Shown piece by piece: positions 1-23,045 of a DNA stretch of 32,417 nt (its first letter is position 1; each line of letters starts with the position of its first letter). The DNA is from a virus. The notes under the pieces are model-generated. The model saw only the letters and a program-made list of their open reading frames with translations. It was not told the origin of the DNA and made no database searches. The translations under genes and the position numbers were made by a program. The stretch covers positions 1-32,417 of IMG/VR virus record IMGVR_UViG_3300037244_000019. One strand, written 5' to 3'.

Positions 1-1810
1 CGATTGTATCTGCCATGACGACTGAGCTTTTACGGGCTTCACGCCCAACAAGGTCATCCTCGACAACCACATTATAGTGTCGGCTCTGTAGCGCCGCTCC
101 GACTCCGATAAGATCGAAAGTGCCTTCTCCTTGTCCTCGACCACTTGCAGTACGACGCTGGTGCAAACTCTCATTTGTCCATGTCTCCTTCGAGGTAGGC
201 ATTAGCTCAGGAAAAAGGTGATTGAAGAATGAATTGTTCTCATAGTGGTTCGAGATTCTACTACCCAACTTGATTGCGTTGGTAATGGTCTCACTGACCA
301 ACAGGATGCGTATATCCTGACTGTGGGTTCTGTGCATCCACTCAATGTAGAGATCAGTGTAGCCAACACTTGTGAAGAAATCTTCTTCCCGTTTGCCAAA
401 AGGTAATGCTCTCCAAATCGGAAAGCACTCGCTGTAGACTGTGGAATTGTGAGTTGGAACATATGCTTCTCCTGCTAGATACAACTGCGTTTTTGAAGCT
501 ACGGAAATACACTTTACTTTAACTGCTACAGGAGATAACTTCTGAATGTTAGTAATAAATCTAAAGTCATCTCGTTTTCTATTCCTGCATCTGTCTTGCT
601 TTCGAGGCAAGTAAAAAGGAACTCTCGAATTTGGATAGAATGTCAAAACATACGCAAGTTTCTTTATGTTGCCATCTTCTTTCTTGCCAATATAAGATTG
701 ATACTGACTGATAACACTTGGTTTCATTCCAAGAGAAGCGATTAGAGTGCGGATGTTTTCCATCAATTCCAAATTAGTATTTGTAAAAGAGCACTGACCT
801 TCTTTTGATACAGAACCATCTGTATCCATCAAACCACAAAGAAGATCCCAACGCTGTTCTTCTGCCCCTTGGAGATAAATAGAAGGAATGTGCTTGTCAT
901 TCGTTACACCAAGTTTATTAAGCTCAGTGCAGAAGTTACCGACAAAACCATACCTATACTTAGCTGCTTGAATTGTGACCTTAATCCCAACCTCTCGAAG
1001 CACTGAGATTATATCAGGATCAGCACAAGTAAAAGAGGCGTTCGCAGAAGTTCCATCTCCAAGCCAGCATCCTAAAGCGTATGGATGAATAACTAAAAGT
1101 TTCTCACTATATTGAACAGGTTTAGCTACTGCAATCCTATACCTATGTTCATAGTGAGTAACTCCTGTAAGTGCGTCAATACGCTCGGCTTTGATATAAG
1201 TACCATACATCTCTTCAGTCGTGAGAACAGAATCTCCATGATAGTACGTCTCATTCGCCAGTCTGACAGTATCATCCACTGTCCAGAGATGACCAGCATC
1301 ACAAATAAGCTGATCTCCAGTGGAGAAGGTTATCCCATAACTATCAGCACTATCTTCGATCTCACTCTCACCAGTAACTTCGACTGGCTCGCCACTCTCA
1401 CCAAATACATAATCTCCAACATGGATTTCGTACATCCTCTTAAAACCTGTTGGAGTAGGAATCCTAGTCTCTATACTCAAAGCCTTGAAATGGTCACGGG
1501 GAATTTCGATTCCTTCTTTGAGGCCGTCTTTCATTACTGTAAGGCACATCTGATAATGCAAGTTTGAGGCTTTGTCAGGATTCTTGGAAAAGCGATTCTT
1601 GCCCATTACAACAGTGCTGAAGTAGTACAAGTCCATCAAAGAATTAGCGCGATAAACCTGTTTCTTCTCCGCCGGCGTTTTGCATAAGTCTGTAGGAATA
1701 AGATTATAACCCAGAACGGTAGAACGAGGTACGAAAGTATCCCCGGTCTCTCCTACTTCGAGAGTCCGGAGTACATCTCGTACCTTCTGTTCTATCTCGC
1801 GCTGGCTCAA
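1..1810 (-). CDS. terL: Terminase large subunit (TerL) precursor with intein; 3' end outside window
   Basis: DNA-packaging motor ATPase of a tailed phage, read leftwards off the window edge (603 codons visible). The start is TTG at 1810, 5 nt after a GGAG that overlaps the stop of the gene before it. Residues 1-109 are the N-extein, ending in PRDHFK. Residues 110-455 are an intein (separate entry). Residues 456 onward (STVYSECFPIWRALPFG) continue the motor. Joining the exteins gives PRDHFK-STVYSE, a classic TerL Walker A, followed by an ILLVSET segment and a Walker B-like VVVEDDLVG. The nuclease domain must lie beyond position 1. The operon position, downstream of a TerS-like gene, agrees. 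Seen: both exteins in one open frame. Known: such motifs define TerL. Catalysis should need splicing, because the P-loop is interrupted before its Ser-Thr. Confidence 0.93.
   Translation of the reverse strand, partial: MSQREIEQKVRDVLRTLEVGETGDTFVPRSTVLGYNLIPTDLCKTPAEKKQVYRANSLMDLYYFSTVVMGKNRFSKNPDKASNLHYQMCLTVMKDGLKEGIEIPRDHFKALSIETRIPTPTGFKRMYEIHVGDYVFGESGEPVEVTGESEIEDSADSYGITFSTGDQLICDAGHLWTVDDTVRLANETYYHGDSVLTTEEMYGTYIKAERIDALTGVTHYEHRYRIAVAKPVQYSEKLLVIHPYALGCWLGDGTSANASFTCADPDIISVLREVGIKVTIQAAKYRYGFVGNFCTELNKLGVTNDKHIPSIYLQGAEEQRWDLLCGLMDTDGSVSKEGQCSFTNTNLELMENIRTLIASLGMKPSVISQYQSYIGKKEDGNIKKLAYVLTFYPNSRVPFYLPRKQDRCRNRKRDDFRFITNIQKLSPVAVKVKCISVASKTQLYLAGEAYVPTHNSTVYSECFPIWRALPFGKREEDFFTSVGYTDLYIEWMHRTHSQDIRILLVSETITNAIKLGSRISNHYENNSFFNHLFPELMPTSKETWTNESLHQRRTASGRGQGEGTFDLIGVGAALQSRHYNVVVEDDLVGREARKSSVVMADTI
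446..1483 (-). mobile_element. Class 3-type intein with LAGLIDADG homing endonuclease inside TerL Walker A
   Basis: 346-residue in-frame insertion, precursor residues 110-455. Block A is ALSIETRIPTPTGF, so position 1 is Ala, not Cys/Ser. Block B has GDQLICDAGHLW, with His65 and Trp67. Block F is VKVKCISV, with Cys325. Block G ends YVPTHN followed by +1 Ser, with Thr344, His345 and Asn346. Trp B:12, Cys F:4 and Thr G:5 are the W-C-T signature of class 3 inteins, which use the block F Cys as first nucleophile. Between blocks B and F lie two dodecapeptide motifs, LGCWLGDG (137-144) and LLCGLMDTDG (214-223), marking a LAGLIDADG (DOD) endonuclease with both acidic residues kept. All splicing residues are intact, so it is probably active. 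The exact intein ends are inferred from motif position and the perfect rejoining of Walker A. Confidence 0.92.
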
Positions 1811-1818: not shown

Positions 1819-2109
1819 CTATACCGCAGACGGCGTCACAGTGGTTGCAATGATCTCTGCTACTTCCTCAGCAAGACCGTTGATAATCGTGGAGGCAGGA
1901 ATGAACAAAGGTTTCTTCAAGCATTGAACCTGAAGCGTCTTTGTCGCAGGATCGTAGTGATAGGTGAAAACGAACGAGCCATGAACAACTGTCACAGTCT
2001 CGTTCGCTGTCGCAGCAACATCTTGGCCAATGTCTACTTTGATCTTAGCAACCAAAGCATCAAACATTGGTTCAGAGACGTTGGTGAATGTTTGCATTTG
2101 AAGAGCCAT
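1819..2109 (-). CDS. Small phage protein between TerS and TerL, unknown function
   Basis: 96-residue protein rich in Val, Ala and Thr with no transmembrane segment and no motif I recognise. The start ATG at 2109 follows a TAAGGAG ribosome site. The stop TAG at 1819-1821 overlaps the Shine-Dalgarno of terL, so the two are translationally linked. It lies 10 nt after the 142-residue gene, in the same operon. The segment around residues 40-70 (TVVHGSFVFTYHYDPATKTL) reads like a small beta-sheet protein. Small genes beside terminase are often minor head or connector proteins, but nothing here proves that. Confidence 0.7.
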   Translation of the reverse strand: MALQMQTFTNVSEPMFDALVAKIKVDIGQDVAATANETVTVVHGSFVFTYHYDPATKTLQVQCLKKPLFIPASTIINGLAEEVAEIIATTVTPSAV

Positions 2110-2119
2110 GTATTTCTCC

Positions 2120-2548
2120 TTAGAGCAGTGCGCCAGTGGAAACCTGAGTTTTGACAGAAGTCACCGTTGGTGTAGACGTTGTCGAGGTGGTACTTGATGG
2201 AATTTGGTTAAGCAATGCAACGATACTGTTAATGATCGCTGTCTGTTGAGCTGTTTCGATTGTAGTACCTGTTGCGGTTTCATAAGCAGTGAAAACTGCT
2301 TGCGCATCAGCAGTAACAAGTGCAAGTTTCTGTGCCCCAGAGCCACTCTGTACATTTGCCGCCGCTGCAAGAGCTTCGGCTTTTGTGACCGAAGCGGCGA
2401 TACCAACAAGCAACGGTGCAAGAGCAGGATCAACAATTGCTGCCACATTGAGACCATCAGTAATGGTACTATCGACAACAGGATTCGTAAAAAACTTCTT
2501 CAAATCCGCCGGTACTGCCTCAAGCCATGTGATAAATTTGTTTGCCAT
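2120..2548 (-). CDS. Ala/Thr-rich phage protein, unknown function
   Basis: 142 residues. It begins MANKFITWLEAVPADLKKFF, an amphipathic helical start, then an Ala/Val-rich stretch (DPALAPLLVGIAASVTKAEA), then a low-complexity Ser/Thr/Pro tail (SSTTSTTSTPTVTSVKTQ). The start at 2548 is preceded by AAGGAGTAACG, which also carries the stop of the 28-residue ORF upstream. The hydrophobic central segment is too weak for a confident membrane span, so I do not call it a holin, although a lysis or membrane-associated role is possible. Confidence 0.7.
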   Translation of the reverse strand: MANKFITWLEAVPADLKKFFTNPVVDSTITDGLNVAAIVDPALAPLLVGIAASVTKAEALAAAANVQSGSGAQKLALVTADAQAVFTAYETATGTTIETAQQTAIINSIVALLNQIPSSTTSTTSTPTVTSVKTQVSTGALL

Positions 2549-2558
2549 TCGTTACTCC

Positions 2559-2645
2559 TTAGTCAATGTTGGTTGTCATACACTCTACCCAGTACATCCA
2601 CTCGAAGCACTGAGGACCGAAGATTGGACTGAACACATCCCTCAT
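2559..2645 (-). CDS. Possible 28-residue protein overlapping its neighbours
   Basis: Short ORF beginning MRDVFSPIFGPQCFEWMYWV and ending before the next ribosome site. Its ATG overlaps the TGA of the 134-residue gene (ATGA), and its TAA overlaps the Shine-Dalgarno of the next gene (TAAGGAG), so it fills the gap exactly. It is unusually rich in aromatic residues and has two Cys. The tight packing is the main evidence. There is only a weak AAAAGG upstream, so coupling from the previous gene would be needed. It may instead be a chance ORF. Confidence 0.4.
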   Translation of the reverse strand: MRDVFSPIFGPQCFEWMYWVECMTTNID

Positions 2646-3046
2646 AGAGACAGCACCTTTTCATCATAAGCATCCCAATTTACACCAAGTTCATCAGAAA
2701 GTTGACGCTCAATTTTAGTAGCAAACTGATGCTCTTTCTGATAAGGTGCATCTGGAGAATCTCCAGGCTCATCCTCATTTCCTTCTAAACGTAACTTTTC
2801 AAAAGCTATATCAAAAGCAGTAATATCTTCTTCTCTAATCCCACGCTTACGACAGAGATAAGCCTCGATAAGCTCGTGTATCGCTACGAGAAACTCATAA
2901 TCCTCGTTTCCCATATCTGACACACGTACCTGCATATCTTCTTCACCAAGTATAAAATTATCCTTAGTATAGAAATAATCACCTACCGTCTCATAGCGAT
3001 GCCTCTCGTGAGGAATTGTCTGAATGAAAATGTTTTTTATCCTCAT
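2642..3046 (-). CDS. Conserved phage protein with HELIE motif, possible metal-binding protein
   Basis: 134 residues. The centre holds DYEFLVAIHELIEAYLCRKR (about residues 49-68), whose His-Glu-x-x-Glu core recalls metal sites of small zincin-like or structural phage proteins. A second conserved-looking segment is PYQKEHQFATKIERQL near residues 101-116. I recall similar proteins (HELxE, then PY..EH.FA...ER) as recurrent unnamed phage proteins. No classical HExxH is present, so protease activity cannot be claimed. It is in the packaging operon, 1 nt after the TerS-like gene, and stops by ATGA overlap with a tiny downstream ORF. Confidence 0.75.
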   Translation of the reverse strand: MRIKNIFIQTIPHERHRYETVGDYFYTKDNFILGEEDMQVRVSDMGNEDYEFLVAIHELIEAYLCRKRGIREEDITAFDIAFEKLRLEGNEDEPGDSPDAPYQKEHQFATKIERQLSDELGVNWDAYDEKVLSL

Positions 3047-3047
3047 A

Positions 3048-3752
3048 CTAGTTCACCGTCCCATCTGTAGGCAGCGAATCTAGTAACTCCGCGTCAGATT
3101 CAAGTTGTGCCAACGCTTCTTCTTGATCAACGGCGCTAAGAGTGTGCGAGTTCGAGAACTCCTTGTTCGCCAGTACCGCAGCAAAAGTATGTTCTCCATG
3201 TGTCGGCGGCGCTGCGCTACGAATAGCATTGATGATACTTCGTGACGCTTCATCCGCCTTCTCAAAATCAAACATATCCACAGGTTTGACTTCGGTCTTA
3301 GATATTTTGGCGAACTGACCCTCGCGATCAAGGATGTCTTGAGCCAAAGCAACTTTGTGCTTACGCTCTGCTAGAGTGGTTCCTTGCGACTGGATTTCAT
3401 TCGCCAAAACTTGGAGCGCCGCGGGAAGCATCTGAGTGAGCATCTCGCGGCGCTGAGATTTGATCATGTCTAGATTTGAGTCCATGTCTACGATAATGCC
3501 GTGGGTAATTTTAATACGTGCATTAAGATAGTCTGAAGATTTCTTAATATAACGTAAGCGTGGGACAGAAACACAGAGCATCGAAGCTATAGCACCTTCG
3601 CCAAAACCAGCGGCTTCTAAACGTACAATCTTCTCTAAACGCTGTAACTTTTTGAAAGCGTTTTTCAGTGCTGGCTTGGAACCAAGACGTCCGCTCTTTG
3701 GATTGATTGAGCCACCATAGTGAAGATGTCCGAAATTTGCTGAGGTCGTCAT
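3048..3752 (-). CDS. terS: Probable terminase small subunit
   Basis: 234 residues. Residues about 40-75 form a helix-turn-helix-like segment (RLEAAGFGEGAIASMLCVSV followed by PRLRYIKKS), then a long helical region with the TerS-like pattern of a conserved AQDILDREGQFAK helix and a KTEVKPVD tail. TerS recognises the packaging site and delivers DNA to TerL. The gene lies four genes upstream of terL in the same leftward operon. The start ATG overlaps the TAA of the 67-residue gene by one base (TAATG). The assignment rests on HTH plus context, because TerS sequences are poorly conserved. A regulatory DNA-binding protein is the alternative. Confidence 0.55.
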   Translation of the reverse strand: MTTSANFGHLHYGGSINPKSGRLGSKPALKNAFKKLQRLEKIVRLEAAGFGEGAIASMLCVSVPRLRYIKKSSDYLNARIKITHGIIVDMDSNLDMIKSQRREMLTQMLPAALQVLANEIQSQGTTLAERKHKVALAQDILDREGQFAKISKTEVKPVDMFDFEKADEASRSIINAIRSAAPPTHGEHTFAAVLANKEFSNSHTLSAVDQEEALAQLESDAELLDSLPTDGTVN

Positions 3753-3955
3753 TAAAAATCGTCCCTTTGTGGTCCTGTGCGCGGTGCTGTGAGATTATAC
3801 CGCTCAAAATGTGCATACAGCGCACGCCGCAAAGGACTAGGATCACCTTGCCACTGGCGTTCAGTCTCAGCTACTGCCTCGCGCATCCTCTCAGATCGCC
3901 GAGGCTCACACTCGCAGTCTTCAATCTCAGACTTCTTATGCGTACATGTGTTCAT
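3752..3955 (-). CDS. First gene of packaging operon, unknown; predicted leaderless
   Basis: 67 residues, charged and Arg/Glu-rich, with a short Cys/His-containing start (MNTCTHKKSEIEDCECEPRR) that might bind a metal. No recognised family. A strong promoter (TTGACG, 18 nt, TAGACT) ends 6 nt before the ATG at 3955, so transcription should begin at or next to the start codon and no ribosome site is possible. It is followed by terS with TAATG overlap, so ribosomes loading here could feed terS translation. Confidence 0.65.
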   Translation of the reverse strand: MNTCTHKKSEIEDCECEPRRSERMREAVAETERQWQGDPSPLRRALYAHFERYNLTAPRTGPQRDDF

Positions 3956-3961
3956 GCTTCA

Positions 3962-3991
3962 AGTCTACCACGTCTGCAACGGCGCCGTCAA
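3962..3991 (-). promoter_or_regulatory. Sigma70-type promoter of packaging operon, leaderless geometry
   Basis: Read on the minus strand: TTGACG (3991-3986), 18-nt spacer, TAGACT (3967-3962), then TGAAGC and ATG at 3955. A start site 6-7 nt after the -10 box falls on the initiation codon. Confidence 0.65.
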
Positions 3992-4224
3992 GTGTATGCG
4001 GGCTATTTCACAGCCAAAAAATGCACCCGCGCACATTTTTCGGCACATACAGCCTTTGCGTGGACACGTGTGATCACTTCTAGCACATACATAAGCATCT
4101 GCTACAAGTTTTACAAATTCTACTACGATCTTACTCGTTCTGAAATTTCTAAAAAATTTAGTAGAGACGTCCCCCCCGTTTTATGCGCGAAAAAGATTTT
4201 TTTGAGGCGGAGGTGCATATGTTT

Positions 4225-4252
4225 ACTATTTAATCAATAGTTATTAAATAGT
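4225..4252. repeat. Perfect inverted repeat ACTATTTAAT / ATTAAATAGT
   Basis: 10-bp arms at 4225-4234 and 4243-4252 with an 8-nt spacer, fully A+T-rich apart from the outer pairs. It directly precedes the 15-bp tandem repeats. It may be an operator or an easily melted part of an origin. Confidence 0.75.
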
Positions 4253-4263
4253 TAATGACGAGA

Positions 4264-4333
4264 GAGTTAGTGATGTAGGAGTTAATAACATAGGAGTTAG
4301 TAACATGAGAGTTAGTAGTAAGAGAGTAACTTG
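4264..4333. repeat. Tandem 15-bp iteron-like repeats (4 full, 1 partial)
   Basis: Four consecutive units begin at 4264, 4279, 4294 and 4309 (GAGTTAGTGATGTAG, GAGTTAATAACATAG, GAGTTAGTAACATGA, GAGTTAGTAGTAAGA). A fifth partial unit starts at 4324 (GAGTAACTTG). The GAGTTA core repeats exactly every 15 bp, and a degenerate TAGTTAATGACGA precedes the first. Exact phasing in a noncoding divergent region suggests cooperative protein binding: replication initiator iterons or an operator array. Confidence 0.8.
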
Positions 4334-4334
4334 T

Positions 4335-4456
4335 GTTTACTAGAGAGTAAACACTATAGATAGTGTGAAAACGAATATAGTTTAGTATTAAACTATCATT
4401 GACTCCCCTGATAGCATAAGACTAGTCTTAAGTCATGGGGGAGATGCATAAGCATC
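4335..4456. repeat. Run of consecutive perfect inverted repeats, mostly 4-nt loops
   Basis: In order: GTTTACT-agag-AGTAAAC (4335-4352), ACACTA-taga-TAGTGT (4351-4366), ATAGTTTA-gtat-TAAACTAT (4377-4396), the 14-bp palindrome TAAGACTAGTCTTA (4417-4430) inside a looser CTCCCC / GGGGGAG pairing, and GATGC-ataa-GCATC (4443-4456). A possible plus-strand promoter overlaps (TTGACT at 4399-4404, 18 nt, TAGTCT at 4423-4428). There is no ORF with coding character. This could be a multi-hairpin RNA or an origin or operator with cruciform potential. Confidence 0.7.
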
Positions 4457-4571
4457 GTTCCCATCGGCCTAGGCCACGGTACCATTAGGTTATACTTTGA
4501 CAATCGAAAGACAAGCACAGTAGAGGCGAATACGTGTAACGCGTATGTGTGGTGACACTCGGCACTCTGAG

Positions 4572-4705
4572 ACTGTGCTCACAGTGTAGTATGCTGTGAA
4601 GAGTATAGTTTCACGGCCATAATGACTCTAGTATTCTAGACAATGCTAGAAGATAAGATGCAAGCGGCCAACTTATCCTATACTCTTCACAGCGTATTGA
4701 CGCTG
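4572..4705 (+). ncRNA. Structured leader A upstream of the 173-residue gene
   Basis: A perfect 15-bp closing stem (CTGTGAAGAGTATAG at 4594-4608 with 4678-4692; outer pairs extend it) encloses 69 nt. Two adjacent inner hairpins are TTCTAG/CTAGAA (4634-4651) and GATAAG/CTTATC (4652-4677), giving a three-way junction. GGCC occurs in the junction strand and again in the second hairpin loop. A 5' hairpin ACTGTG/CACAGT (4572-4585) and a 3' hairpin CAGCG/CGCTG (4690-4705) flank the stem. The 3' one shares bases with it, so the two pairings compete. The gene's ribosome site follows directly. Its function is unknown. Confidence 0.6.
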
Positions 4706-4723
4706 TAAACGGAGAAAACAAAC

Positions 4724-5245
4724 ATGAGTAACGAACAGAATGTATCTGAGTTGAAGTCAGTGAAGGTTACGGACTCCAAAGTGACGCCGGTAAACGGCGC
4801 CGTTGAATTTAACCCGTTGTCAGTGTTGAACGAACGTCAACGCATTGCCCTTGCCGCAAAGTGGGGAGCATTGAAGCAAGCGGAACGTGACGCATATGTG
4901 GAGTTTAGCTCTACCGGCGTCACAGATAGTGCTACGCTGTATGTTATCGCTTCAATCCTCACCGAAGCGAACAACAAGATTTTCTCAGACTCACGCGGCG
5001 AGTATCTGGGAATCATGCAACAGTGGTATCAGAGTTTGACTAGCGCCGAGCACTCCATCAAAACGTACGGTGAAGCTGAACTTCAGAAGTTGGCCGATAA
5101 GACCACTGGCGCACAGCAACTTACTTTGTTGAGTGCCTTGAAAGCAAAGCTGCTGGCCAATCGAACATTCCTGCCCGAGCCGGTAGAAAAAAGTTTCCGT
5201 GCTCTATGTCGGAACTTTGGATTTGACCTCAACATGGTCAAGTGA
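4724..5245 (+). CDS. First early-region protein, unknown function
   Basis: 173 residues, soluble. ATG at 4724 follows ACGGAGAAAACAAAC. The N-terminal 30 residues look disordered. A helical body follows (ERQRIALAAKWGALKQAERD; LTLLSALKAKLLANR) and the protein ends in FRALCRNFGFDLNMVK. No family is recognised. It is the first gene rightwards from the control region, lies between two structured RNA elements, and is therefore likely made early and regulated through its leader. Takeover or anti-defence proteins often sit here, but no motif supports a specific role. Confidence 0.75.
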   Translation: MSNEQNVSELKSVKVTDSKVTPVNGAVEFNPLSVLNERQRIALAAKWGALKQAERDAYVEFSSTGVTDSATLYVIASILTEANNKIFSDSRGEYLGIMQQWYQSLTSAEHSIKTYGEAELQKLADKTTGAQQLTLLSALKAKLLANRTFLPEPVEKSFRALCRNFGFDLNMVK

Positions 5246-5354
5246 CAGCACATGCGCAGAGTGTGTGCTGAAACATATGCAGAATGAGTACAGGGAGAAA
5301 TCCCTGTGCTTATTCTGTAGCGTAGGTGCATGTACTCTCTCTCTGCACACTCTG
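5246..5354 (+). ncRNA. Structured element G after the 173-residue gene
   Basis: A stem CAGAGTGT/ACACTCTG (5257-5264 with 5347-5354) encloses a long arm: CAGAAT/ATTCTG, then ACAGGGA-gaaa-TCCCTGT (5290-5307), a perfect 7-bp hairpin with a GAAA tetraloop. An alternative hairpin CAGCACA/TGTGCTG (5246-5270) uses the same bases as the closing stem. It lies just after the stop codon and lacks a terminator-like T run. Confidence 0.55.
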
Positions 5355-5765
5355 TTCTCTCTCATACTACAATGTATGAGGGGTCATCGACTAGGCCTCT
5401 CGAACCTTTGAAATGTGCAACATAGGAGGGGTAGCTAGTGTAGGGGTGGAAATTTTGACACGCGATGGCTGAAAAGGTGCCTTTGCGAAATGCGTTTTTG
5501 CGCAAATTCGTTTAAGAAGTTTTTCTCTTAGTAAAAAAAAAAAAAAAAAAAAAATAATAATATACTAAGAAAGAGAACAAGAACAGAAAAGAGAACAAGT
5601 AAAGCTTTCTCTCTCCAAGTGTGAAATGCGAAAGCGGCGACGCAACCGAAAAAGGCCGCGCATCGAATGTCAAAAATTCCGCCCCATGATTAGGTAGGGG
5701 TCATAAGTCGATGATTTGATGAGACTTAGCTGGGAAGCCATCGACCCCCCATGCTTTCTAGCAGC
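5355..5765. other. Noncoding region with A22 tract inside a diverged inverted repeat
   Basis: No convincing gene. A run of 22 A (5533-5554) followed by TAATAATA sits between CTTAGTA and TACTAAG, which can pair. It is flanked by diverged inverted arms: GGGGTGGAAATTTTGACA near 5445-5460 and, reversed, TGTCAAAAATTCCGCCCC near 5671-5688, both continuing into CGATG-like sequence. AGAGAACAAG occurs twice near 5572-5599. The pattern (long A tract, A+T-rich segment, flanking inverted arms) resembles a replication origin or a large regulatory site. No -10 box fits the TTGACA in either arm. Confidence 0.5.
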
Positions 5766-5795
5766 TTGACAAGCATCACTCTCGAAGCGTATACT
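5766..5795 (+). promoter_or_regulatory. Strong sigma70-type promoter
   Basis: TTGACA (5766-5771), 18-nt spacer, TATACT (5790-5795). The start site would fall near 5802, which rules out the ATG at 5797 and favours the ATG at 5821 for the next gene. Confidence 0.75.
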
Positions 5796-5820
5796 TATGA
5801 GAGTGAAGGAGCTAGGTCAA

Positions 5821-6369
5821 ATGATAGATCGCGCCACATTACCAGAGTATCAAGAGTATGTACAAATGCTTTTGATATATAAACAAGCGAAAAAGGATTA
5901 CCCGATTTTTGTATCACAGTATGGTTGGATGAAAAACTCTGAGAATCCACTAGAACGTGCTAGGTGGTATGATGAGAAAGAAAAGAATACACGGATTAAT
6001 AAGCTCTATTACGCTGTGAGAGCGAAGTATAAAGACGCCGCAGCCAGAGCAGAGTTTGCAGCAAGAAAGATTGATCTCTCAGTTGTGGATATAGCTGAGA
6101 TTGCAGGAATTGAGATTCCTGTAAAAATGTGTGATATTGTCAAGAGTGAGCGTAAAGTCTCTGACAATAGCACGCATTTGCTTAATCCTGAAGTCAGGAG
6201 AACTCTCAGAGAGATTGCTATTCGTGATGGTTTAGAGATTAAACCTGAGTGGATGGAGACTCCAGAAGAACTCGCGCAAGCATCAGAGAGCGAGTCTATC
6301 TCTAGTCCTAACATATCTTCAGAAGCTGAAGCTGAGTCTGAGTTTGACAACGGATTTGACAAGCTGTAG
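5821..6369 (+). CDS. Unknown early protein with acidic C-terminus
   Basis: 182 residues. ATG 5821 is chosen because AAGGAG lies 9 nt upstream and the promoter excludes the earlier in-frame ATG; a GTG at 5803 is also possible. The protein is mainly helical and charged (YKQAKKDYPIFVSQYGW; RAKYKDAAARAEFAARK). It ends in a Ser/Glu-rich acidic tail (ASESESISSPNISSEAEAES), typical of flexible linkers or DNA mimics. No domain is recognised. It is the first gene of a small-gene operon reaching to about 6751. Confidence 0.75.
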   Translation: MIDRATLPEYQEYVQMLLIYKQAKKDYPIFVSQYGWMKNSENPLERARWYDEKEKNTRINKLYYAVRAKYKDAAARAEFAARKIDLSVVDIAEIAGIEIPVKMCDIVKSERKVSDNSTHLLNPEVRRTLREIAIRDGLEIKPEWMETPEELAQASESESISSPNISSEAEAESEFDNGFDKL

Positions 6370-6410
6370 GCACATGCGTACATGCGTACATGCCCAAAGG
6401 AGCTATTCAA

Positions 6411-6611
6411 ATGAATGACATTGTAATCTTTGCTATGCTAGGATTGAGTATTCTCACACTCATTCTCGGATTGCTTATATGGAACTATGAGCAAGCAAAG
6501 AAGGCAGCGGCGCAAGAACGTGCTTATTATCGTGAAGCTGTCAGACGAGTTGAAGCTGGCAGAAAGCTCAATGAGAACTCTCACGGTGATGGATTTGAGT
6601 ACAGAGATTAA
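6411..6611 (+). CDS. Small single-span membrane protein
   Basis: 66 residues. An N-terminal transmembrane helix (IVIFAMLGLSILTLILGLLI, residues 4-23) is followed by a charged cytoplasmic-type helix (EQAKKAAAQERAYYREAVRR). ATG 6411 has AAAGGAG 8 nt upstream; the ATG at 6390 lies before this site and is not the start. Single-span proteins with a charged helical tail include holin/antiholin-like and Rz-like proteins, but no lysis gene adjoins. The 5' side carries a tandem repeat of ACATGCGT. Confidence 0.7.
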   Translation: MNDIVIFAMLGLSILTLILGLLIWNYEQAKKAAAQERAYYREAVRRVEAGRKLNENSHGDGFEYRD

Positions 6612-6637
6612 CAACCAACAACAGAAAGGAGTATATC

Positions 6638-6751
6638 ATGCGTATTAGTAAACGTGGTATAGGATGTTTAGGATGTTTGGGATTCTCTATTTTATTCTGG
6701 TTTATCCTATATCACGTTGTGAAATGGATATGGATTGCTGTTGTTAGATAA
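6638..6751 (+). CDS. 37-residue membrane peptide
   Basis: It begins MRISKRGIGCLGCLGFSILF and ends KWIWIAVVR. There is one transmembrane helix (about residues 9-35) with a basic N-terminus and a duplicated GCLG. AGAAAGGAGTATATC gives a good ribosome site. It directly follows another one-span protein, and a third lies at 6904. Such runs of tiny membrane proteins are common in early or host-interaction regions. Function unknown. Confidence 0.6.
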   Translation: MRISKRGIGCLGCLGFSILFWFILYHVVKWIWIAVVR

Positions 6752-6754
6752 GTT

Positions 6755-6883
6755 GGCAGACCTTGCTCTGCCATAGCCGCTCAGGTCAAAAACGAAGTCA
6801 GCATCAGGCTGATACTGGTACGCGCCGATGGGATACCATCTACCAGTGGGCCGGGAGAGCGGCTATGGGAGCGCAAGATGCTC
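6755..6883 (+). ncRNA. Structured leader B before the 32-residue membrane protein
   Basis: A perfect 12-bp closing stem CCATAGCCGCTC/GAGCGGCTATGG (6771-6782 with 6857-6868) encloses inner stems TCAGCAT..TGATA and CTGGTA..TACCAG. The 5' hairpin GGCAGA-ccttgc-TCTGCC (6755-6772) shares the CC of the stem. The 3' hairpin GGAGC-gcaagat-GCTCT (6868-6884) shares its final G. AAGGAGAATCC, the next ribosome site, follows at once. Confidence 0.6.
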
Positions 6884-6903
6884 TAACAAGGAGAATCCAA
6901 CAA

Positions 6904-7002
6904 ATGTTTTCTGACAAATGGTATCTCAAACATGAAAGACTCATCTATCGTGCAGGCTTCACAGTTATACTTCTAGCTGTGTATATGCTTATAGCATGGT
7001 AG
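6904..7002 (+). CDS. 32-residue membrane peptide
   Basis: It begins MFSDKWYLKHERLIYRAGFT and ends VILLAVYMLIAW. A basic N-terminal half is followed by one hydrophobic helix running to the C-terminus, a tail-anchor-like layout. ATG 6904 is set by AAGGAGAATCC 8 nt upstream; the longer frame back to 6763 crosses the structured leader and is not coding. Third tiny membrane protein in 600 nt. Function unknown. Confidence 0.6.
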   Translation: MFSDKWYLKHERLIYRAGFTVILLAVYMLIAW

Positions 7003-7069
7003 CACCCACGTAGTACATTCTATCTCAACATTTTCATTGGCGCCGCAGGTACCACCGGAGGCAAGACAC

Positions 7070-7276
7070 ATGAGAAGTACACAGATTCACAATATCGACG
7101 TAAAGGAACTTGAAGCTACGTGGATATGCGCTGACAATACTCCAAGAGTGGACGTGCCGCGAATGAAGAAAAGCATACGTAGTATAAGTGCTCACGATAA
7201 ACAATCGAATATCGTGAATAACGCTAAGCGTTACCGTGCTGCTAGAAAAACAAAGTTGGCGGCGCAAGTAGTGTAG
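7070..7276 (+). CDS. Small basic protein, unknown function
   Basis: 68 residues. ATG 7070 follows CCGGAGGCAAGACAC; the earlier ATG at 7037 has no ribosome site. The C-terminal half is strongly basic (DKQSNIVNNAKRYRAARKTK), suggesting nucleic-acid binding. No recognised domain. It lies between structured leaders B and C. Confidence 0.65.
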   Translation: MRSTQIHNIDVKELEATWICADNTPRVDVPRMKKSIRSISAHDKQSNIVNNAKRYRAARKTKLAAQVV

Positions 7277-7281
7277 CTACA

Positions 7282-7400
7282 GGAGAACTTCGGTTCTCCA
7301 GAGCACATCCAGGCTGTTATAACAAGTGGCCGTAAGTCTCTTCTTCGCGAGCTGTTATAGCGACCCCCACGTGGATGTGCTCTGGAGAGCTAAAGGCTCT
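7282..7400 (+). ncRNA. Structured leader C before the 80-residue gene
   Basis: A perfect 14-bp stem CCAGAGCACATCCA/TGGATGTGCTCTGG (7298-7311 with 7372-7385) encloses TATAACA/TGTTATA (7318-7324 with 7353-7359). The 5' hairpin GGAGAAC-ttcg-GTTCTCC (7282-7299), with a UUCG tetraloop, shares the CC of the stem. The 3' hairpin AGAGC-taaag-GCTCT (7386-7400) abuts it. AAAAAGGAGAATCC follows as the ribosome site. The order matches leader B. Confidence 0.65.
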
Positions 7401-7418
7401 AAAAAGGAGAATCCGAAA

Positions 7419-7661
7419 ATGCCAACATTACCAAAACTCGCATCACTGAAACCAGAGGATAATGAGCTGGAAGCTATGCTCATTCTCTTACTCAAGGTAG
7501 CCTATAACATTTCCGGCGCGGATATTGAGCACGTTCGTCAATTTGGCATGGGCATGTTCTACGAAGGTTGTGTTACAGGTGCTCAGGCATATGTGGAAGC
7601 ACTTCGAACCGAAGTAGAACTCCGTAAAAGTCACTTCAATGCCGTCTGCGAGGTCGATTAA
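7419..7661 (+). CDS. Small soluble protein, unknown function
   Basis: 80 residues, predominantly helical (NELEAMLILLLKVAYNISGA; VTGAQAYVEALRTEVELRK). ATG 7419 follows AAAAAGGAGAATCCGAAA; the ATG at 7326 lies inside the leader stem-loop and is rejected. Helical pairs of this type suggest oligomerisation, but no family is recognised. Confidence 0.7.
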   Translation: MPTLPKLASLKPEDNELEAMLILLLKVAYNISGADIEHVRQFGMGMFYEGCVTGAQAYVEALRTEVELRKSHFNAVCEVD

Positions 7662-7662
7662 T

Positions 7663-7715
7663 TAGCTTGAAAAACCTTCAAAAGATGCGCTAAATAGCTT
7701 GAAAATCAGCATCTT
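7663..7715 (+). promoter_or_regulatory. Repeats upstream of promoter, possible operator
   Basis: The direct repeat TAGCTTGAAAA occurs at 7663-7673 and 7695-7705, 32 bp apart (three helical turns). An inverted repeat AAGATGC/GCATCTT (7682-7688 with 7709-7715) spans the second copy. Both lie just upstream of the -35 box at 7721, where an activator or repressor would bind. Confidence 0.45.
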
Positions 7716-7720
7716 AGCTC

Positions 7721-7749
7721 TTGACAATCGACGCCGAGAGGTGTATCAT
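7721..7749 (+). promoter_or_regulatory. Strong sigma70-type promoter, leaderless geometry
   Basis: TTGACA (7721-7726), 17-nt spacer, TATCAT (7744-7749), then TTGAGA and an ATG at 7756. This matches the spacing at the promoters before 3955 and 12837. Confidence 0.75.
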
Positions 7750-7755
7750 TTGAGA

Positions 7756-8031
7756 ATGGGAGAACATAACATGACAGATGCAGCAATCGCAGCGAATGTG
7801 CCAGATTCCACATTTCCTCAGCAAATTGAGGTTACATTCATACTCAGACTCACCGTGGACGATCAGTTTGATCGTGATTACTGGCTTGAGACAGGAACAG
7901 ATAAGGTAACTTTGGATGCGATTGCCGATGTTACTGATATTCTACTCGACAATCTTAATCCAGCTCTTGAAACTGTGAACGGTCTTACCTATGAGCAGAT
8001 CAAGCAAGCTATGGCAGACCGTGAAGTCTAA
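7756..8031 (+). CDS. Small early protein, unknown function
   Basis: 91 residues from the ATG at 7756, which lies 6 nt after the -10 box and would be read from a leaderless mRNA. An in-frame ATG at 7771 has GGGAG 8 nt upstream, so the same transcript may also start there (86 residues). An ATG at 7699 lies upstream of the promoter and is rejected. The body is acidic and looks like a compact alpha/beta protein (QIEVTFILRLTVDDQFDRDY; KVTLDAIADVTDILLDNL). No family recognised. Confidence 0.7.
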   Translation: MGEHNMTDAAIAANVPDSTFPQQIEVTFILRLTVDDQFDRDYWLETGTDKVTLDAIADVTDILLDNLNPALETVNGLTYEQIKQAMADREV

Positions 8032-8069
8032 CACAGCAAGTGAGATGCGCATACTTTATCACGCATATT

Positions 8070-8217
8070 CTCACACACACACAGATGTGAGGTGTATTCT
8101 TTAGAACAGAGTTTGAAGAGACTCTTGGGCAGTAGAATAAGCTATTAACTAGATCATTTCTACTAGGCCATTCTCCTCTCTTCCACTCTGTTCTAAAGAG
8201 TACATGAGCCAAGGCTC
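8070..8217 (+). ncRNA. Structured leader D before the 199-residue gene
   Basis: A 19-bp closing stem with one G-U pair (8094-8112 with 8185-8203; core TTTAGAACAGAGT) extends inward as GAAGAG/CTCTTC. The inner hairpin AGTAGAA/TTCTACT is at 8131-8164. The 5' hairpin CTCACA/TGTGAG (8070-8091) and the 3' hairpin GAGC-caag-GCTC (8206-8217) flank it. About 50 nt follow, with a small CTCC/GGAG hairpin, before the ribosome site. It is the longest closing stem of the group. Confidence 0.65.
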
Positions 8218-8269
8218 TACTCTAACTCTCCTTTAATGGAGAATATGTTCTACCAAAGGAGCACTACAA

Positions 8270-8869
8270 ATGGCAGATGTAAACGTAACGGAGCAAGCGG
8301 GTGTGCTGACTCAGGAAAAGCTCACCTATCGCAAGTTTGTCAAGCTCGGAACCGATGCCGACGGCAAGACTACCATCGAGAAGAAGGCTGTAAAATCTGA
8401 GTCCGACAAGAAGGAGCCGGAAAAGCTGGAGGACGGCACTGCTAATCCTCACGCTGGCGTGGCTGTTTCGTGGACTGGGCCTGCTAGGGAAGGTTTTACA
8501 CTTTTCAACGAGAACGAGTTTATCCGTTATCAGGTCAAGTCTTGGACTGGTGCGGAGACGCTAGTTCCTGATGAAGCTCAGCGTGTCTACATCTTCCAGT
8601 ACGGCCTCAATGCAATTCAAACAGCTCGCGCTATTGGCTACATGGATGAGATCAAGGAAGAAGCCGGCGAGCCGACTCCTGTACATGACGGCGAGACTAT
8701 TGATCTCATTACTGCTATCAATGAGCCGCCCACTCGGAAGTCTACCTCTGACATTGACAAGCTCATCAAGCAACTCAATGCTATGGGTGTTCCGGCTGAC
8801 AAACAGGCGGATTTCTTGGCGCTGTTGCTGGCTTCACAGACTGAAGCTACGACTGAAGCTGCTGAGTAA
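8270..8869 (+). CDS. Abundant-type acidic protein, unknown function
   Basis: 199 residues. ATG 8270 follows AAAGGAGCACTACAA. The N-terminal third is Lys/Glu-rich. The middle has aromatic, beta-rich sequence (AVSWTGPAREGFTLFNENEF; IRYQVKSWTG). The C-terminal helices (STSDIDKLIKQLNAMGVPAD) end in an Ala/Glu/Thr-rich tail. Noticeably G+C-richer codons than neighbouring small genes, a strong ribosome site, a long structured leader and its own terminator suggest high expression. No domain recognised. Confidence 0.75.
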   Translation: MADVNVTEQAGVLTQEKLTYRKFVKLGTDADGKTTIEKKAVKSESDKKEPEKLEDGTANPHAGVAVSWTGPAREGFTLFNENEFIRYQVKSWTGAETLVPDEAQRVYIFQYGLNAIQTARAIGYMDEIKEEAGEPTPVHDGETIDLITAINEPPTRKSTSDIDKLIKQLNAMGVPADKQADFLALLLASQTEATTEAAE

Positions 8870-8913
8870 GAACAGGGTTGTAGCATTTTGCTGACAAGGT
8901 TACAATTCAGCAT

Positions 8914-8954
8914 ACGGAGTATGTGTAGGGGACGCATACTCCGTAGTTTTTTTA
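8914..8954 (+). terminator. Rho-independent terminator
   Basis: A perfect 10-bp stem ACGGAGTATG/CATACTCCGT (8914-8923 with 8935-8944) with an 11-nt loop is followed by AG and seven T. It ends the 8270-8869 transcript. Confidence 0.9.
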
Positions 8955-8972
8955 ATTGCTGTACTCACAATG

Positions 8973-9178
8973 GTTCCATAGACAAGCCTTTTCGGTGGCG
9001 GAACTATAAGTAAACGTAGCGATACTACGTTGAAACTAATTGTCTACTCGGCCATTACTATGGCCACAAGAAGAGTGGGTACAGCTAAGGTACTGAGGGG
9101 CTGTATTAAACCAGACATATCATTCTGACCCACTCTTCACAATTCTATCACCACTCACATTCTTAGCAGCGTCGCTGC
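8973..9178 (+). ncRNA. Structured leader E (two domains) before the J-domain operon
   Basis: First domain: TAGACAA/TTGTCTA (8979-8985 with 9040-9046) enclosing AACGTAG-cgata-CTACGTT (9013-9031). Then GGCCAT-tact-ATGGCC (9050-9065). Second domain: a perfect 11-bp stem GAAGAGTGGGT/ACCCACTCTTC (9070-9080 with 9128-9138) enclosing TACAGC/GCTGTA. A 3' hairpin GCAGC-gtc-GCTGC (9166-9178) precedes the start region. The order 5' hairpin, long stem, short hairpin, start repeats that of leaders B, C and D. No clear promoter was found between the terminator at 8954 and here. Confidence 0.6.
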
Positions 9179-9200
9179 GGGAAGATCACAGGGTACGTGT

Positions 9201-9764
9201 ATGTATGTGTACTACGAATACCACAAAGACACCTCTGACAAAATTGTGCTCGCAGAGCTAGTTCTTTCTTCTTGGGGAAATGGCAAACTCGCAATTAACT
9301 TCAACAGCGCAACAGAGAAGATGATTTTTGAGATTTGTAAGCTCTCTCTCAAGCATGCGCCTGTAGCACAGAGAAGTTTTGATCCAGCTACAAATGTCTG
9401 GAGCTACTTTGACGAATGGGGCAAGTTTACGCTTGAGCGTTTAGTCGCTGTCACAGATGCCATCACACAAAGAGTCACACTCATTGAGGTTCAAGATCTA
9501 GCAGCGCAAGCTGTGAACAAACGGATTAGTCTTTCTGCCAAACATGTGCGACCGGAAGATTTCTTCTACAACTACGGCAAGCCCGTAGCACAAGCTACGA
9601 TGACGAAAGAAACCGTAGCACAAAGGCTCAAGCAGCTTATGGGCGAGACGTTGGATAAATCCTCCTATCGCCGCGCTGCATTGAAGTATCATCCTGACAG
9701 AAATAACGGCGATGGTACTAAGATGAGTGAGCTTAACATGCTTTGGAGTGTGTACAATGCTTAG
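9201..9764 (+). CDS. J-domain (DnaJ-like) protein
   Basis: 187 residues. The C-terminal part (about 133-187) is a J domain: a helix with QRLKQLMGE, then SYRRAALKYHPDRNNGDG with the invariant His-Pro-Asp at 164-166, then a final helix. J domains stimulate Hsp70 (DnaK) ATPase. The N-terminal 120 residues, beginning MYVYYEYHKDTSDK, are unrecognised and probably select the client. The J domain lies at the C-terminus, and no Gly/Phe linker or zinc domain is present. The start at 9201 has a weak CAGGG. First gene of the operon leading to VWA and FtsK-like genes, so the client may belong to that complex. Confidence 0.85.
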   Translation: MYVYYEYHKDTSDKIVLAELVLSSWGNGKLAINFNSATEKMIFEICKLSLKHAPVAQRSFDPATNVWSYFDEWGKFTLERLVAVTDAITQRVTLIEVQDLAAQAVNKRISLSAKHVRPEDFFYNYGKPVAQATMTKETVAQRLKQLMGETLDKSSYRRAALKYHPDRNNGDGTKMSELNMLWSVYNA

Positions 9765-9876
9765 CAAAATTTATCATTGGTTCAAGCGTCGTCGTAAAGA
9801 ATGGCGTTATGCTAAGATGTATGACGCACTTTGGTTAACGCGCGTTAAAATTGTATGGCGAAACAGAAAGAAGTAG
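9757..9876 (+). CDS. 39-residue very basic peptide
   Basis: It begins MLSKIYHWFKRRRKEWRYAK and ends WRNRKK, with many Arg, Lys and Trp. It overlaps the end of the J-domain gene by 8 nt, and its stop TAG overlaps the Shine-Dalgarno of the VWA gene, so it exactly bridges the two. Its composition suggests nucleic-acid or membrane-surface binding. The tight fit is the main evidence that it is real. Confidence 0.55.
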   Translation: MLSKIYHWFKRRRKEWRYAKMYDALWLTRVKIVWRNRKK

Positions 9877-9887
9877 GAGAATCAGCA

Positions 9888-10667
9888 ATGGGCTGTCAAA
9901 TCCAAAACCCTAAAAACGCCGTGGACGCCAAGCGAGCAGCTATCGAAGCTCTCAAAGCATCCACAGCTCCAGCAGGGACGAATCCTAGTGCAATCGTGCG
10001 CTATATTCCACCCGGCGAGTGCCCAGACCGAAACAGAATTGTATTTGATGATTCTGGTTCTATGGGCGGTTACATTTATGATGCAAAACTTGGAATGATT
10101 GAGTATCTGCGGAATTGTATTCCCAATCAAACTTCCGTGGCGATTCATTTTATGAACTCTACAGCGTGTGATACACAGCTTGAGAGTAATTTGCTAAAGC
10201 TCGCTACGGATATTCGTGAGATAAATCTACGGAGTGGTGGAACACCGTTTTTTAACACTCTCAAGAAAGCTCTTGAAGCTACGCCCACGCTGACTCGGCT
10301 AATCGCTTTTACTGACGGCTCGCCGACGGACGCTCTAGCGGCAGACTATGGAGAAGAATTAGATACTTATTATGGTTCTAATTCCAATCCGTGGATTCAC
10401 TCTGCTGACGTTATCATTAAGATTGCCAAAGCTACAGGTTCTGGTATCCCGATTGATACTGTATACTTTGGTGTAGGAGCAGAGTATGAGCGCAAGGAAA
10501 TTGAGCTTCTGAAATATCTCTCTTCCAAAACCGGAGGCTATTTTCTGCACTTCGATCCTGCGAAGGTAAACTTCGCGCAAGCGTTCAAGTATCTCGCGCC
10601 GTGCCATCGTTTGATGCTGGCGTCTGCTAGCTTCAGAGCGCAAGTAGAAAGTGGGGCACAAAAATGA
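9888..10667 (+). CDS. VWA-domain protein with complete MIDAS
   Basis: 259 residues. A von Willebrand factor A fold starts near residue 50: IVFDDSGSMGG carries the metal-site Asp-x-Ser-x-Ser (54, 56, 58), RSGGTPFF supplies the MIDAS Thr, and AFTDGSPTDA the MIDAS Asp. VWA domains mediate metal-dependent protein contacts and often pair with AAA or other motor ATPases. ATG 9888 is chosen over 9855 because TAGGAG lies 7 nt upstream. The stop overlaps the next gene (ATGA), and an FtsK-like motor follows, suggesting a motor-adaptor pair. Confidence 0.88.
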   Translation: MGCQIQNPKNAVDAKRAAIEALKASTAPAGTNPSAIVRYIPPGECPDRNRIVFDDSGSMGGYIYDAKLGMIEYLRNCIPNQTSVAIHFMNSTACDTQLESNLLKLATDIREINLRSGGTPFFNTLKKALEATPTLTRLIAFTDGSPTDALAADYGEELDTYYGSNSNPWIHSADVIIKIAKATGSGIPIDTVYFGVGAEYERKEIELLKYLSSKTGGYFLHFDPAKVNFAQAFKYLAPCHRLMLASASFRAQVESGAQK

Positions 10668-10870
10668 GAATGCGTGAGTTTGAGTCAAGGCTCAAGAAAC
10701 TAACTACTGTAACTATTCTCACCTACGGCAGAAAGCCTGTAGGAAAAGGTTTTGAATTCCACCAACTCTACGTGCATACTGGTCCAGGTGTCTGTCATTT
10801 GGAACTTGGATCGGATTGCATGGAGAATCAGTTAGCGTATTTCCAGAAACTCTGCAAGAAGGAGTCATAA
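10664..10870 (+). CDS. Small protein between VWA and FtsK-like genes
   Basis: 68 residues (MRMREFESRLKKLTTVTILT near the start, ending CKKES). An alpha/beta mini-domain; no family recognised. Its ATG overlaps the VWA stop, and its TAA is followed immediately by the FtsK-like ATG, so all three are translationally coupled and may form one complex. Confidence 0.65.
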   Translation: MRMREFESRLKKLTTVTILTYGRKPVGKGFEFHQLYVHTGPGVCHLELGSDCMENQLAYFQKLCKKES

Positions 10871-12043
10871 ATGCTTCCTTCTGAAGCCGCGCAAAAACAA
10901 TCTGAACGTCTAGCACAATACAGCCCGCTCATCCAGCATCAAGTCACGACGCTGACGAGAAAGCTTTTTGTGCTAGGCTTCAGCGCGCTCTTCTCCCGTA
11001 TGGTAGAGGGTCCGGTGGTTCGTATCTTCTACTTCAAACCTCTCGGTGAGCCTAAATTCTCCAGCATCCTCAACAAAGAAGAAGAGTTTGCTGGCTCTCT
11101 TGCTGTAGAGTCCGTTCGTGTAGAACGTGCTCTCGGCGAAGTTGCTATTTCTGTTCCACGTGCAGACCGTCAAACCATACAGTTTGATGCTTGCTTGCAT
11201 AAAATGATGACCTCGGAACTTACTCGTGGAATGGCGCTGCCTCTGTTACTAGGTCAATCCACTATCGGAGAACACCTTTATGCTGATCTTGCTCAGCAGC
11301 CGCATTTACTGGTCGCGGGAGCTACTAACTCAGGGAAAAGCGTATTTACCGCACAGCTTATTTGCTCGCTTTCTCTGTTTCGTTCTCCGGAAGAGCTTGA
11401 GTTTATCCTTGTGGATACTAAGAATCTTGATCTCGTATTATTCAAGGGACTTGAGCATGTTAAATACGTACTCAACAACATCTCTGATCTCAGAGCCGCG
11501 CTTACGGTTTTACTTGAAGATGTTAGGTTGCGAAATGCCCAAATGAGTGGGTTAGCGCGGAACATTGGAGAGTGGAACAGCACAATCAATGGCTACGGTG
11601 ATAAGAAGTTCAAGTACAAGATTCTTATCATCGACGAGCTGGCGGATGTGCTAGATCAGGATAACGCATTCTTAGCACAGATCGAGCGTAAAATGCGTCC
11701 ACCGTCAATACACTCACTCTTGAAAACCATTGCACAAATCTCTAGGGCTGCTGGAGTACATTTAATTCTTGCTACTCAACGGCCTTCAGTCAAGGTAATC
11801 TCTGGGGATATTAAAGCAAACTTTCCTGCTAGAGTATCCTTCAAGTTGCCAAGCTCGATGGATTCTCGCGTTATTCTTGACGAAACCGGCGCCGAGAATC
11901 TACTCGGTATGGGATATTACTTTTACAAGATAGCAGGTTCCGATACCGTCAAGCGAGCGCACAGCGCGTTCGTATCAATCAACGATATTGCTAACATTCT
12001 CACACAGAATGAGAACATAAGGAGACAGTATGCCTCAATCTAA
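10871..12043 (+). CDS. FtsK/SpoIIIE-family DNA translocase, soluble minimal form
   Basis: 390 residues. Residues 45-115 match the FtsK alpha domain and 120-365 the RecA-like beta motor. LPLLLGQSTIGEHLYADLAQ leads into HLLVAGATNSGKSVF (Walker A 150-157). ILIIDELADV is Walker B (251-260). SRAAGVHLILATQRPSVKVI and FPARVSFKLPSS are the characteristic FtsK segments, ending AENLLGMG. These motors pump double-stranded DNA as hexamers. There is no membrane domain and no C-terminal winged-helix gamma domain for reading KOPS/SRS sites. In a phage that also has a terminase, its role (genome segregation, maintenance as an episome, DNA processing, or interference) is open. Confidence 0.92.
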   Translation: MLPSEAAQKQSERLAQYSPLIQHQVTTLTRKLFVLGFSALFSRMVEGPVVRIFYFKPLGEPKFSSILNKEEEFAGSLAVESVRVERALGEVAISVPRADRQTIQFDACLHKMMTSELTRGMALPLLLGQSTIGEHLYADLAQQPHLLVAGATNSGKSVFTAQLICSLSLFRSPEELEFILVDTKNLDLVLFKGLEHVKYVLNNISDLRAALTVLLEDVRLRNAQMSGLARNIGEWNSTINGYGDKKFKYKILIIDELADVLDQDNAFLAQIERKMRPPSIHSLLKTIAQISRAAGVHLILATQRPSVKVISGDIKANFPARVSFKLPSSMDSRVILDETGAENLLGMGYYFYKIAGSDTVKRAHSAFVSINDIANILTQNENIRRQYASI

Positions 12044-16538: not shown

Positions 16539-16575
16539 CCAGATTTCAAAACCAAAGCGCAAGGAGCAGCACACA

Positions 16576-17076: not shown

Positions 17077-17083
17077 CACAGAA

Positions 17084-17148: not shown

Positions 17149-17159
17149 GGAGAATAAGA

Positions 17160-18905: not shown

Positions 18906-18913
18906 GAGAATCA

Positions 18914-20884: not shown

Positions 20885-20899
20885 GAAAGAGCTTCTAGC

Positions 20900-22863: not shown

Positions 22864-22876
22864 GAAAGGAGGTGTC

Positions 22877-23038: not shown

Positions 23039-23045
23039 CATAAGA

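Follow-up and report, generated by a model that had tools for sequence, protein, structure and literature searches.

The window analysed here is an entire virus record of 32,417 bases, whose left end truncates the gene for the large subunit of the phage terminase (TerL). The reverse strand of this end bears an ORF (2-1810, minus strand) that exits the record on the left. Within it, a stop-free stretch of 346 codons (446-1483, minus strand; translation ALSIETRIPTPTGF...AGEAYVPTHN) is inserted in frame as residues 110-455 of a precursor whose full length of 969 residues is seen in a second contig, L003. The original prediction had placed an intein at 446-1483. This is confirmed by the open 346-codon frame, by the mismatch-free recurrence of all 1038 bases in five further contigs (L002-L006), which also excludes a sequencing error, and by the 64 of 80 related loci that are uninterrupted at this point. 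The empty loci likewise bear out the claim that excision rejoins PRDHFK with STVYSE, as they read straight through this junction or a near variant of it, and the predicted Ala1, Trp67, Cys325, Thr344 and both LAGLIDADG motifs are all present in the translation. The features of the locus are as follows.

1484-1810, minus strand: TerL N-extein, 109 residues with a TTG start (from the ORF and the match of the uninterrupted homologue L009 to the PHROG terminase large subunit)
1484-1501, minus strand: PRDHFK, N-terminal part of an atypical Walker A motif (invariant residues in 17 TerLs; the remainder, Ser-Thr, lies at 440-445)
446-1483, minus strand: intein of 346 residues (Ala1-Asn346), assigned to class 3 (from the translation, with both ends set by the empty alleles)
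1481-1483, minus strand: Ala1, a non-nucleophilic first residue (Asp in other alleles at the same site)
1289-1291, minus strand: His65, block B position 10 (invariant in 49 aligned inteins)
1283-1285, minus strand: Trp67, block B position 12, the W of WCT (invariant in the 49; 79/79 in the larger sample)
569-1123, minus strand: homing endonuclease domain, about residues 121-305 with limits drawn by eye (from Pfam LAGLIDADG_3 and Hom_end and from a full-model match to PI-SceI)
1052-1081, minus strand: LAGLIDADG motif 1 (block C), YALGCWLGDG, residues 135-144 (Gly142 invariant, Asp143 and Gly144 nearly so)
815-844, minus strand: LAGLIDADG motif 2 (block E), LLCGLMDTDG, residues 214-223 (Gly217 to Gly223 invariant)
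509-511, minus strand: Cys325, block F position 4, the C of WCT and the expected branch-point nucleophile (invariant in the 49; 79/79)
446-454, minus strand: Thr344-His345-Asn346, block G positions 5-7, with the T of WCT (from the alignments)
443-445, minus strand: Ser at +1 (TerL Ser110), the predicted acceptor nucleophile (from the ORF and the empty alleles)
2-445, minus strand: TerL C-extein, first 148 residues, the rest being cut off by the record end (from the ORF; complete in L003)

Elsewhere in the window, a family A DNA polymerase is split over two genes within 17360-20884 (plus strand). The first (17360-18448, plus strand) encodes a UDG-like domain detected by Pfam, followed by a match to the earlier part of phrog_17, and the second (19373-20884, plus strand) encodes DNA_pol_A. 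The two halves are separated by a stop in 36/36 related loci holding both, with the first ending no later than where the second begins and the estimated spacers ranging from -10 to 1623 bases; thus, within this clade the split would seem to be an old one. An intron in the polymerase was considered and rejected in view of these stops and of the failure of Rfam to match anything in the window at an E value of 1 or better. The spacer between the two genes contains an ORF for an HNH endonuclease (18455-18874, plus strand), which is identical in L190, L191 and L221; L219 has a 44% relative of it in the corresponding spacer, and tblastn (E 1e-5) retrieved no match to it in the remaining spacers. It looks like a free-standing mobile gene. 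The window also encodes a GARS-like ATP-grasp enzyme (26032-27342, minus strand), a Tlde1-domain protein (12272-12685, plus strand) and, at 22060-22863 (plus strand), a protein whose GroES-like match is weak (7e-5).

The insertion point and the intein

The host gene was identified through the uninterrupted homologue L009, which matches phrog_38 (PHROG 38), the terminase large subunit, at 2.8e-49; Pfam returned no family for the same protein at E 0.01. Across 17 aligned TerLs, P104, R105, D106, H107, K109, S110 and T111 are invariant, and the P, R and K are also conserved in two distant TerLs, those of ANMV-1 and ctLwi270. The Walker A motif so delineated is non-classical, reading PRDHFKS with Phe in the usual place of Gly. 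On the strength of this conservation and of the two distant TerLs, the insertion most likely separates the P-loop Lys109 from Ser110 of an atypical motif. The earlier statement that the intein lies exactly in the Walker A motif thus stands insofar as the break falls between a conserved Lys and Ser fitting a P-loop, and needs qualification in that the motif departs from the classical form and is assigned by conservation. An AlphaFold model of L009 from 17 close relatives was too poor to verify the loop (pLDDT 33.9), and searching the PDB with a profile from the 17-TerL alignment gave two matches only (E 0.57 and 0.77). The TerL of ctLwi270 (L189 1210-2862) has an apparent insert of its own elsewhere, at a point where its relatives read FSCQFLN, and this is perhaps an intein beginning with Cys. 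A scan of genome contigs with the TerL alignment also recovered an intein-free relative (78% identity, all 623 positions) on a contig binned with Sulfuriferula. We do not claim this bacterium as the host, since the evidence is a single MAG-binned contig of 47,690 bases that may be a stray phage contig.

Class 3 inteins have been defined by a Trp at block B position 12, a Cys at F:4 and a Thr at G:5, without an N-terminal nucleophile (PMC3196547, PMC5050341), as in the DnaB intein of Mycobacterium chimaera (W67, C124, T143, with H65; PMC7664689) and in DnaBi1 of M. smegmatis (W67, C118, T137, with H65; PMC6195587). The window intein begins with Ala rather than with a Cys, Ser or Thr nucleophile, its W67, C325 and T344 align to the WCT of 6bs8 and 6rix, and the block B His (H65), the terminal His-Asn (H345-N346) and Ser+1 are all in place. 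Its sequence hence supports an assignment to class 3. The description of class 3 as a minority class is fair, yet 1701 such inteins, 82.5% of them with LAGLIDADG motifs, had been tallied by 2020 (PMC7891396).

We next consider the residues in a sample of 79 inteins, namely that of the window and those of 78 further loci. The latter come from the 80 best-scoring of 588 loci recovered with the intein alignment, from which L003 was dropped as identical to the window and L089 as partial. In this sample, which leans to class 3 because it consists of best-scoring relatives and which includes some near-duplicates, W-C-T is present in 79/79, while residue 1 is Ala in 62, Pro in eight, Asp, Glu and Met in two each, and Gln, Lys and Leu in one each; Lys and Ser/Thr flank 61/79. 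At the TerL site itself, the four fully readable alleles of the other type (L010, L014, L033 and L082) have Asp as the first residue and keep W-C-T. A single site that is home to both Ala- and Asp-starting alleles thus offers comparative support for Cys325, and not residue 1, as the nucleophile. The Ala- and Asp-type alleles are 47-49% identical for L010 and L033 and 35-36% for L082. A splicing-block tree, which contains few non-class 3 sequences and has no support values, groups the window intein among the WCT inteins. In this tree the two allele types, considered as a possible single lineage at the site, are not joined as sisters.

W-C-T was also found in 17 of the 20 inteins that were aligned from phage records; those of the Vibrio phages JA-1 and 1.245.O have N-C-T, and the GRNsp50 helicase intein has neither the W nor the C. 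The TerL intein of Acidovorax phage ACF1 (L165 463-1512) and the intein of Mycobacterium phage TinyTim gp212 (L175 601-1593) possess the full W-C-T plus, at position 1, Cys and Ser, respectively. With both possible nucleophiles at hand, these two blur the border between class 1 and class 3.

The central part of the insert matches Pfam LAGLIDADG_3 and Hom_end above their cut-offs. Its two motifs were named by eye, with invariance judged in 49 aligned inteins, and end in the acidic signatures of LAGLIDADG endonucleases, LGDG (141-144) and MDTDG (219-223). An AlphaFold model of the intein from the alignment of 49 (pLDDT 94.4, pTM 0.92) was compared with known structures by VIA-align. It superposes on PI-SceI (1ef0; Z 27.4, 321 residues, rmsd 3.2), on the class 3 inteins 6rix (Z 21.4, 130 residues, rmsd 1.8) and 6bs8, from DnaB (Z 21.2, 125/125 residues, rmsd 1.3), and on the class 1 intein gp41-1 (6qaz; Z 18.5, 124 residues, rmsd 1.5). 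Ranking by sequence profile places 6rix, 6bs8 and 6riy on top (7e-39 to 8e-38). Between L010 and L033, the pN/pS ratio, which is rough with pS near saturation, is 0.13 for the endonuclease domain and 0.22 and 0.20 for the splicing domain. On this rough measure, the endonuclease domain appears to be constrained at least as much as the splicing domain.

We therefore hold it highly probable that the window carries a class 3 LAGLIDADG intein at TerL Lys109/Ser110, which is predicted to splice under the lead of Cys325 and to have spread by homing. From class 3 membership, the splicing steps would be as follows: Cys325 would attack the peptide bond between Lys109 and Ala1 to form a branched thioester, the N-extein would then be transferred to Ser+1, and Asn346 would cyclise as the exteins are ligated to give PRDHFKSTVYSE, the ATP-binding loop. 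Unspliced TerL should be without this loop. During co-infection, the endonuclease would cleave an empty TerL allele, and repair would copy the intein together with flanking donor DNA into the cut allele.

Alleles of the TerL site and a probable record of homing

A C-extein search of viral contigs brought up 113 TerL relatives, and the 80 best were retained. Among these, 64 have an empty site, 10 have an intein and six are cut off before the site, so that 64/74 readable sites are empty. The N-extein was matched with a 0-base gap in 63 of the 64 empty loci, and in the remaining one, L015, two upstream residues are visible. The 10 occupied loci include L028 and L083, in which the C-terminal part of the insert alone is visible, and duplicate contigs (L007 of L003, L027 of L002 and L047 of L005); L004 appears both here and among the five contigs with the identical intein.

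Occupied and empty alleles are found in closely related phages. The record G001, which holds the empty locus L008, corresponds to window positions 16,415-32,417, that is, 16,003 bases at 100% as printed (one mismatch in the 8467 bases counted), and the records that hold the intein-bearing L003 and L006 match window positions 2001-12000 at 99%. Furthermore, metagenome 3300050034 yields both the occupied L047 and the empty L025, and 3300050035 both the occupied L004 and the empty L068. In the empty sibling contig IMGVR_UViG_3300037171_000022 (L008 1-39), the assembly breaks off 39 bases upstream of the intein site, an ending that could be anticipated in a sample with both occupied and empty alleles.

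All 1038/1038 intein bases are identical in window-type and L004-type phages, the exteins of which (L004 versus L003) are only 78.9% (N) and 76.6% (C) identical, with pS values of 0.66 and 0.72. Downstream of the site, L003 and the empty L008 show 26 differences within the first 198 bases and 0 in the next 1300; the window is identical to L003 through +203 and across 3000 bases upstream. L002, identical to the window wherever the two were compared (600 bases upstream, 420 downstream), shows 147 differences from L008 in the first 900 bases downstream and 0 in the next 600. Tract ends could be mapped downstream only, as L008 reaches just 39 bases upstream of the site. We read these patterns of L003 and L002 against L008 as donor tracts nested around the same intein, the donor DNA reaching to about +200 in the former genotype and stopping before +900 in the latter, as would result from two events or from a single one that recombination trimmed later.

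In the second lineage, the divergence between L004 and the empty L048 falls downstream from 18% over the first 200 bases to 3% at 300-900; upstream, it is 8% in the first 100 bases and 1.1% at 150-324. The pair is unclean, as there are extra patches of difference farther from the site: the downstream counts are 36 (0-200), 7 (200-750), 14 (750-900), 0 (900-1080) and 28 (1080-1500), and the upstream counts are 9 (0-110), 4 (110-450), 18 (450-750) and 6 (750-1083). Among the compared loci, none stands out as the source of the L004 flank, which even the best of them matches at no more than 84%. The Asp-type alleles yield less: L010 versus L009 shows a weak pattern (0.025 near and 0.010 far downstream; 0.09 near and 0.04 far upstream), and L033 has no near-site peak against its nearest empty locus, L032 (0.035 near, 0.112 far).

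Identical inteins with locally divergent flanks might also arise from phage mosaicism or from assembly chimeras, in which case they would be uninformative with regard to homing. As a control, we used 29 empty-empty pairs, not independent of each other, that diverge distally by more than 0 and less than 6%. In 26/29 the divergence in the first 200 bases is at most 10%, and the three above this value each involve L022, indicating that local mosaicism happens in sites without an intein at present. Such readings have in their favour that the contigs are all metagenomic and that L008 stops 39 bases short of the site, where mixed-allele assemblies may break, together with the peaks in 3/29 control pairs and the outlying patches of L004 versus L048. 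However, the intein-bearing flank recurs in separately named assemblies, with 0 mismatches over 4913 bases between L003 and L006, and the intein-centred peak appears in two TerL lineages (L003/L008 and L004/L048) and is absent in 26 of the 29 controls. We accordingly rate such an artefactual or mosaic origin as unlikely.

These observations suggest a recent transfer of the intein between TerL lineages, with adjacent divergence shaped like the remnants of co-conversion, and a selfish, recently homing intein appears to be their best reading. We also considered evasion of homing through a synonymous +1 Ser codon (AGY versus TCN), and dropped this idea because the codon of the empty L008 differs from the intein-bearing TCC at its first two bases, so that an AG-type allele had seemingly been invaded.

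Splicing and the proposed timing of packaging

The original prediction further proposed that splicing could time packaging. Under this proposal, the intein acts as a regulator, with splicing answering an infection signal and thereby timing DNA packaging. The insertion interrupts the ATP-binding loop, so that unspliced TerL should be inactive; a regulatory role has been proposed for P-loop inteins (PMC5050341), and the best precedent is DnaBi1 of M. smegmatis, a P-loop intein of class 3 that is reported to be inhibited by oxidation (PMC6195587). Nevertheless, the site is empty in 64/74 readable cases among the best 80 of 113 relatives, a phage with a printed match of 100% to 16,003 window bases has no intein in its TerL, and the intein appears to have been gained recently through recombination. 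Moreover, the five mycobacteriophage terminase inteins assayed in one study, which did not include TerL1-a, all spliced readily (PMC5050341). The timing proposal is hence unsupported by the distribution of so recently moved an insert, and we consider it very unlikely.

The residue at position 48 bears on the same question. The oxidation switch of DnaBi1 is described as a disulfide between Cys48 and Cys118, and every replacement of Cys48 that was tried, including Ser, ended splicing (PMC6195587). The window intein has Ser48, which speaks against a switch of this kind in it; the Asp-type alleles have Cys48 (L010 2065-3096, L033 735-1766, L082 2745-3764) and are exempt from this objection. The intolerance of DnaBi1 would be a warning for the activity of the window intein if the position were equally important. 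Among the 79 aligned inteins from the best 80 of 588 loci, 39 have Cys48 and 40 lack it, which suggests that it is not equally important here. One may conceive of conditional splicing that gates packaging, with the alleles that compete for the TerL site differing in their switch (Cys48 in the Asp type, Ser48 in the Ala type). We give this little credence, but if true, the near-identical phages with and without the intein would allow a direct test of the debated regulatory role of inteins.

Finally, an insert derived from a class 1 intein through loss of its first Cys, now splicing-dead and on its way out, would account for Ala at residue 1 and for a Ser48 of the kind not tolerated by DnaBi1 (PMC6195587), but is scarcely credible given that every class 3 residue is intact, that relatives vary in the first residue with W-C-T constant, that this exact sequence appears to have spread recently into a gene essential to phages, and that the predicted model superposes on class 3 structures.

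Comparison with known inteins

The selfish, homing class 3 intein favoured here shares its two-domain plan, a splicing domain with a LAGLIDADG endonuclease, with PI-SceI, the yeast VMA1 intein. PI-SceI uses the class 1 mechanism, and it differs in its host gene and in its sequence (19% identity). The class residues and the numbering of His65 and Trp67 are shared with M. smegmatis DnaBi1 (6bs8) and the M. chimaera intein (6rix). DnaBi1 also resembles the window intein in its P-loop site and Ser+1, but is a mini-intein without an endonuclease, resides in a helicase and has Cys48 where the window intein has Ser48 (PMC6195587).

Within terminases, the closest parallel in position is the mycobacteriophage TerL1-a intein, which lies between the invariant P-loop Lys and the next Thr, at a site described as a "classic" P-loop insertion, as against Lys and Ser here (PMC5050341). 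TerL1-a and TerL1-b, both P-loop inteins of TerL, differ from the window intein in belonging to other TerL families and in having a known host. According to the same source, TerL inteins may bear LAGLIDADG endonucleases, and TerL1-b and TerL1-c cut intein-free alleles (PMC5050341). In a search of 50,697 phage records, the top-ranked intein match has 35.1% identity, and all 759 matching records fall below 60%. The top-ranked match from a named phage, at 35.1%, is the TerL intein of Acidovorax phage ACF1, which directly follows GK and has W-C-T, but differs in the Cys at its position 1.

Thus, TerL inteins, P-loop sites, phage class 3 inteins and the endonuclease activity of TerL inteins have all been described before (PMC5050341), and environmental phage variants have been reported to gain and lose inteins and homing endonucleases (PMC7468147). 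Among the titles and abstract openings listed by searches of the open literature, none was noticed that deals with co-conversion tracts for a class 3 intein of phages, a weak sign given that subscription papers lie mostly outside it. Hence, the kind of element, its class and the kind of site are all known, whereas the record of recent homing is unusually clear: one 1038-base sequence in two TerL lineages, and near-identical phages with and without it, constitute a natural record of an intein in motion.
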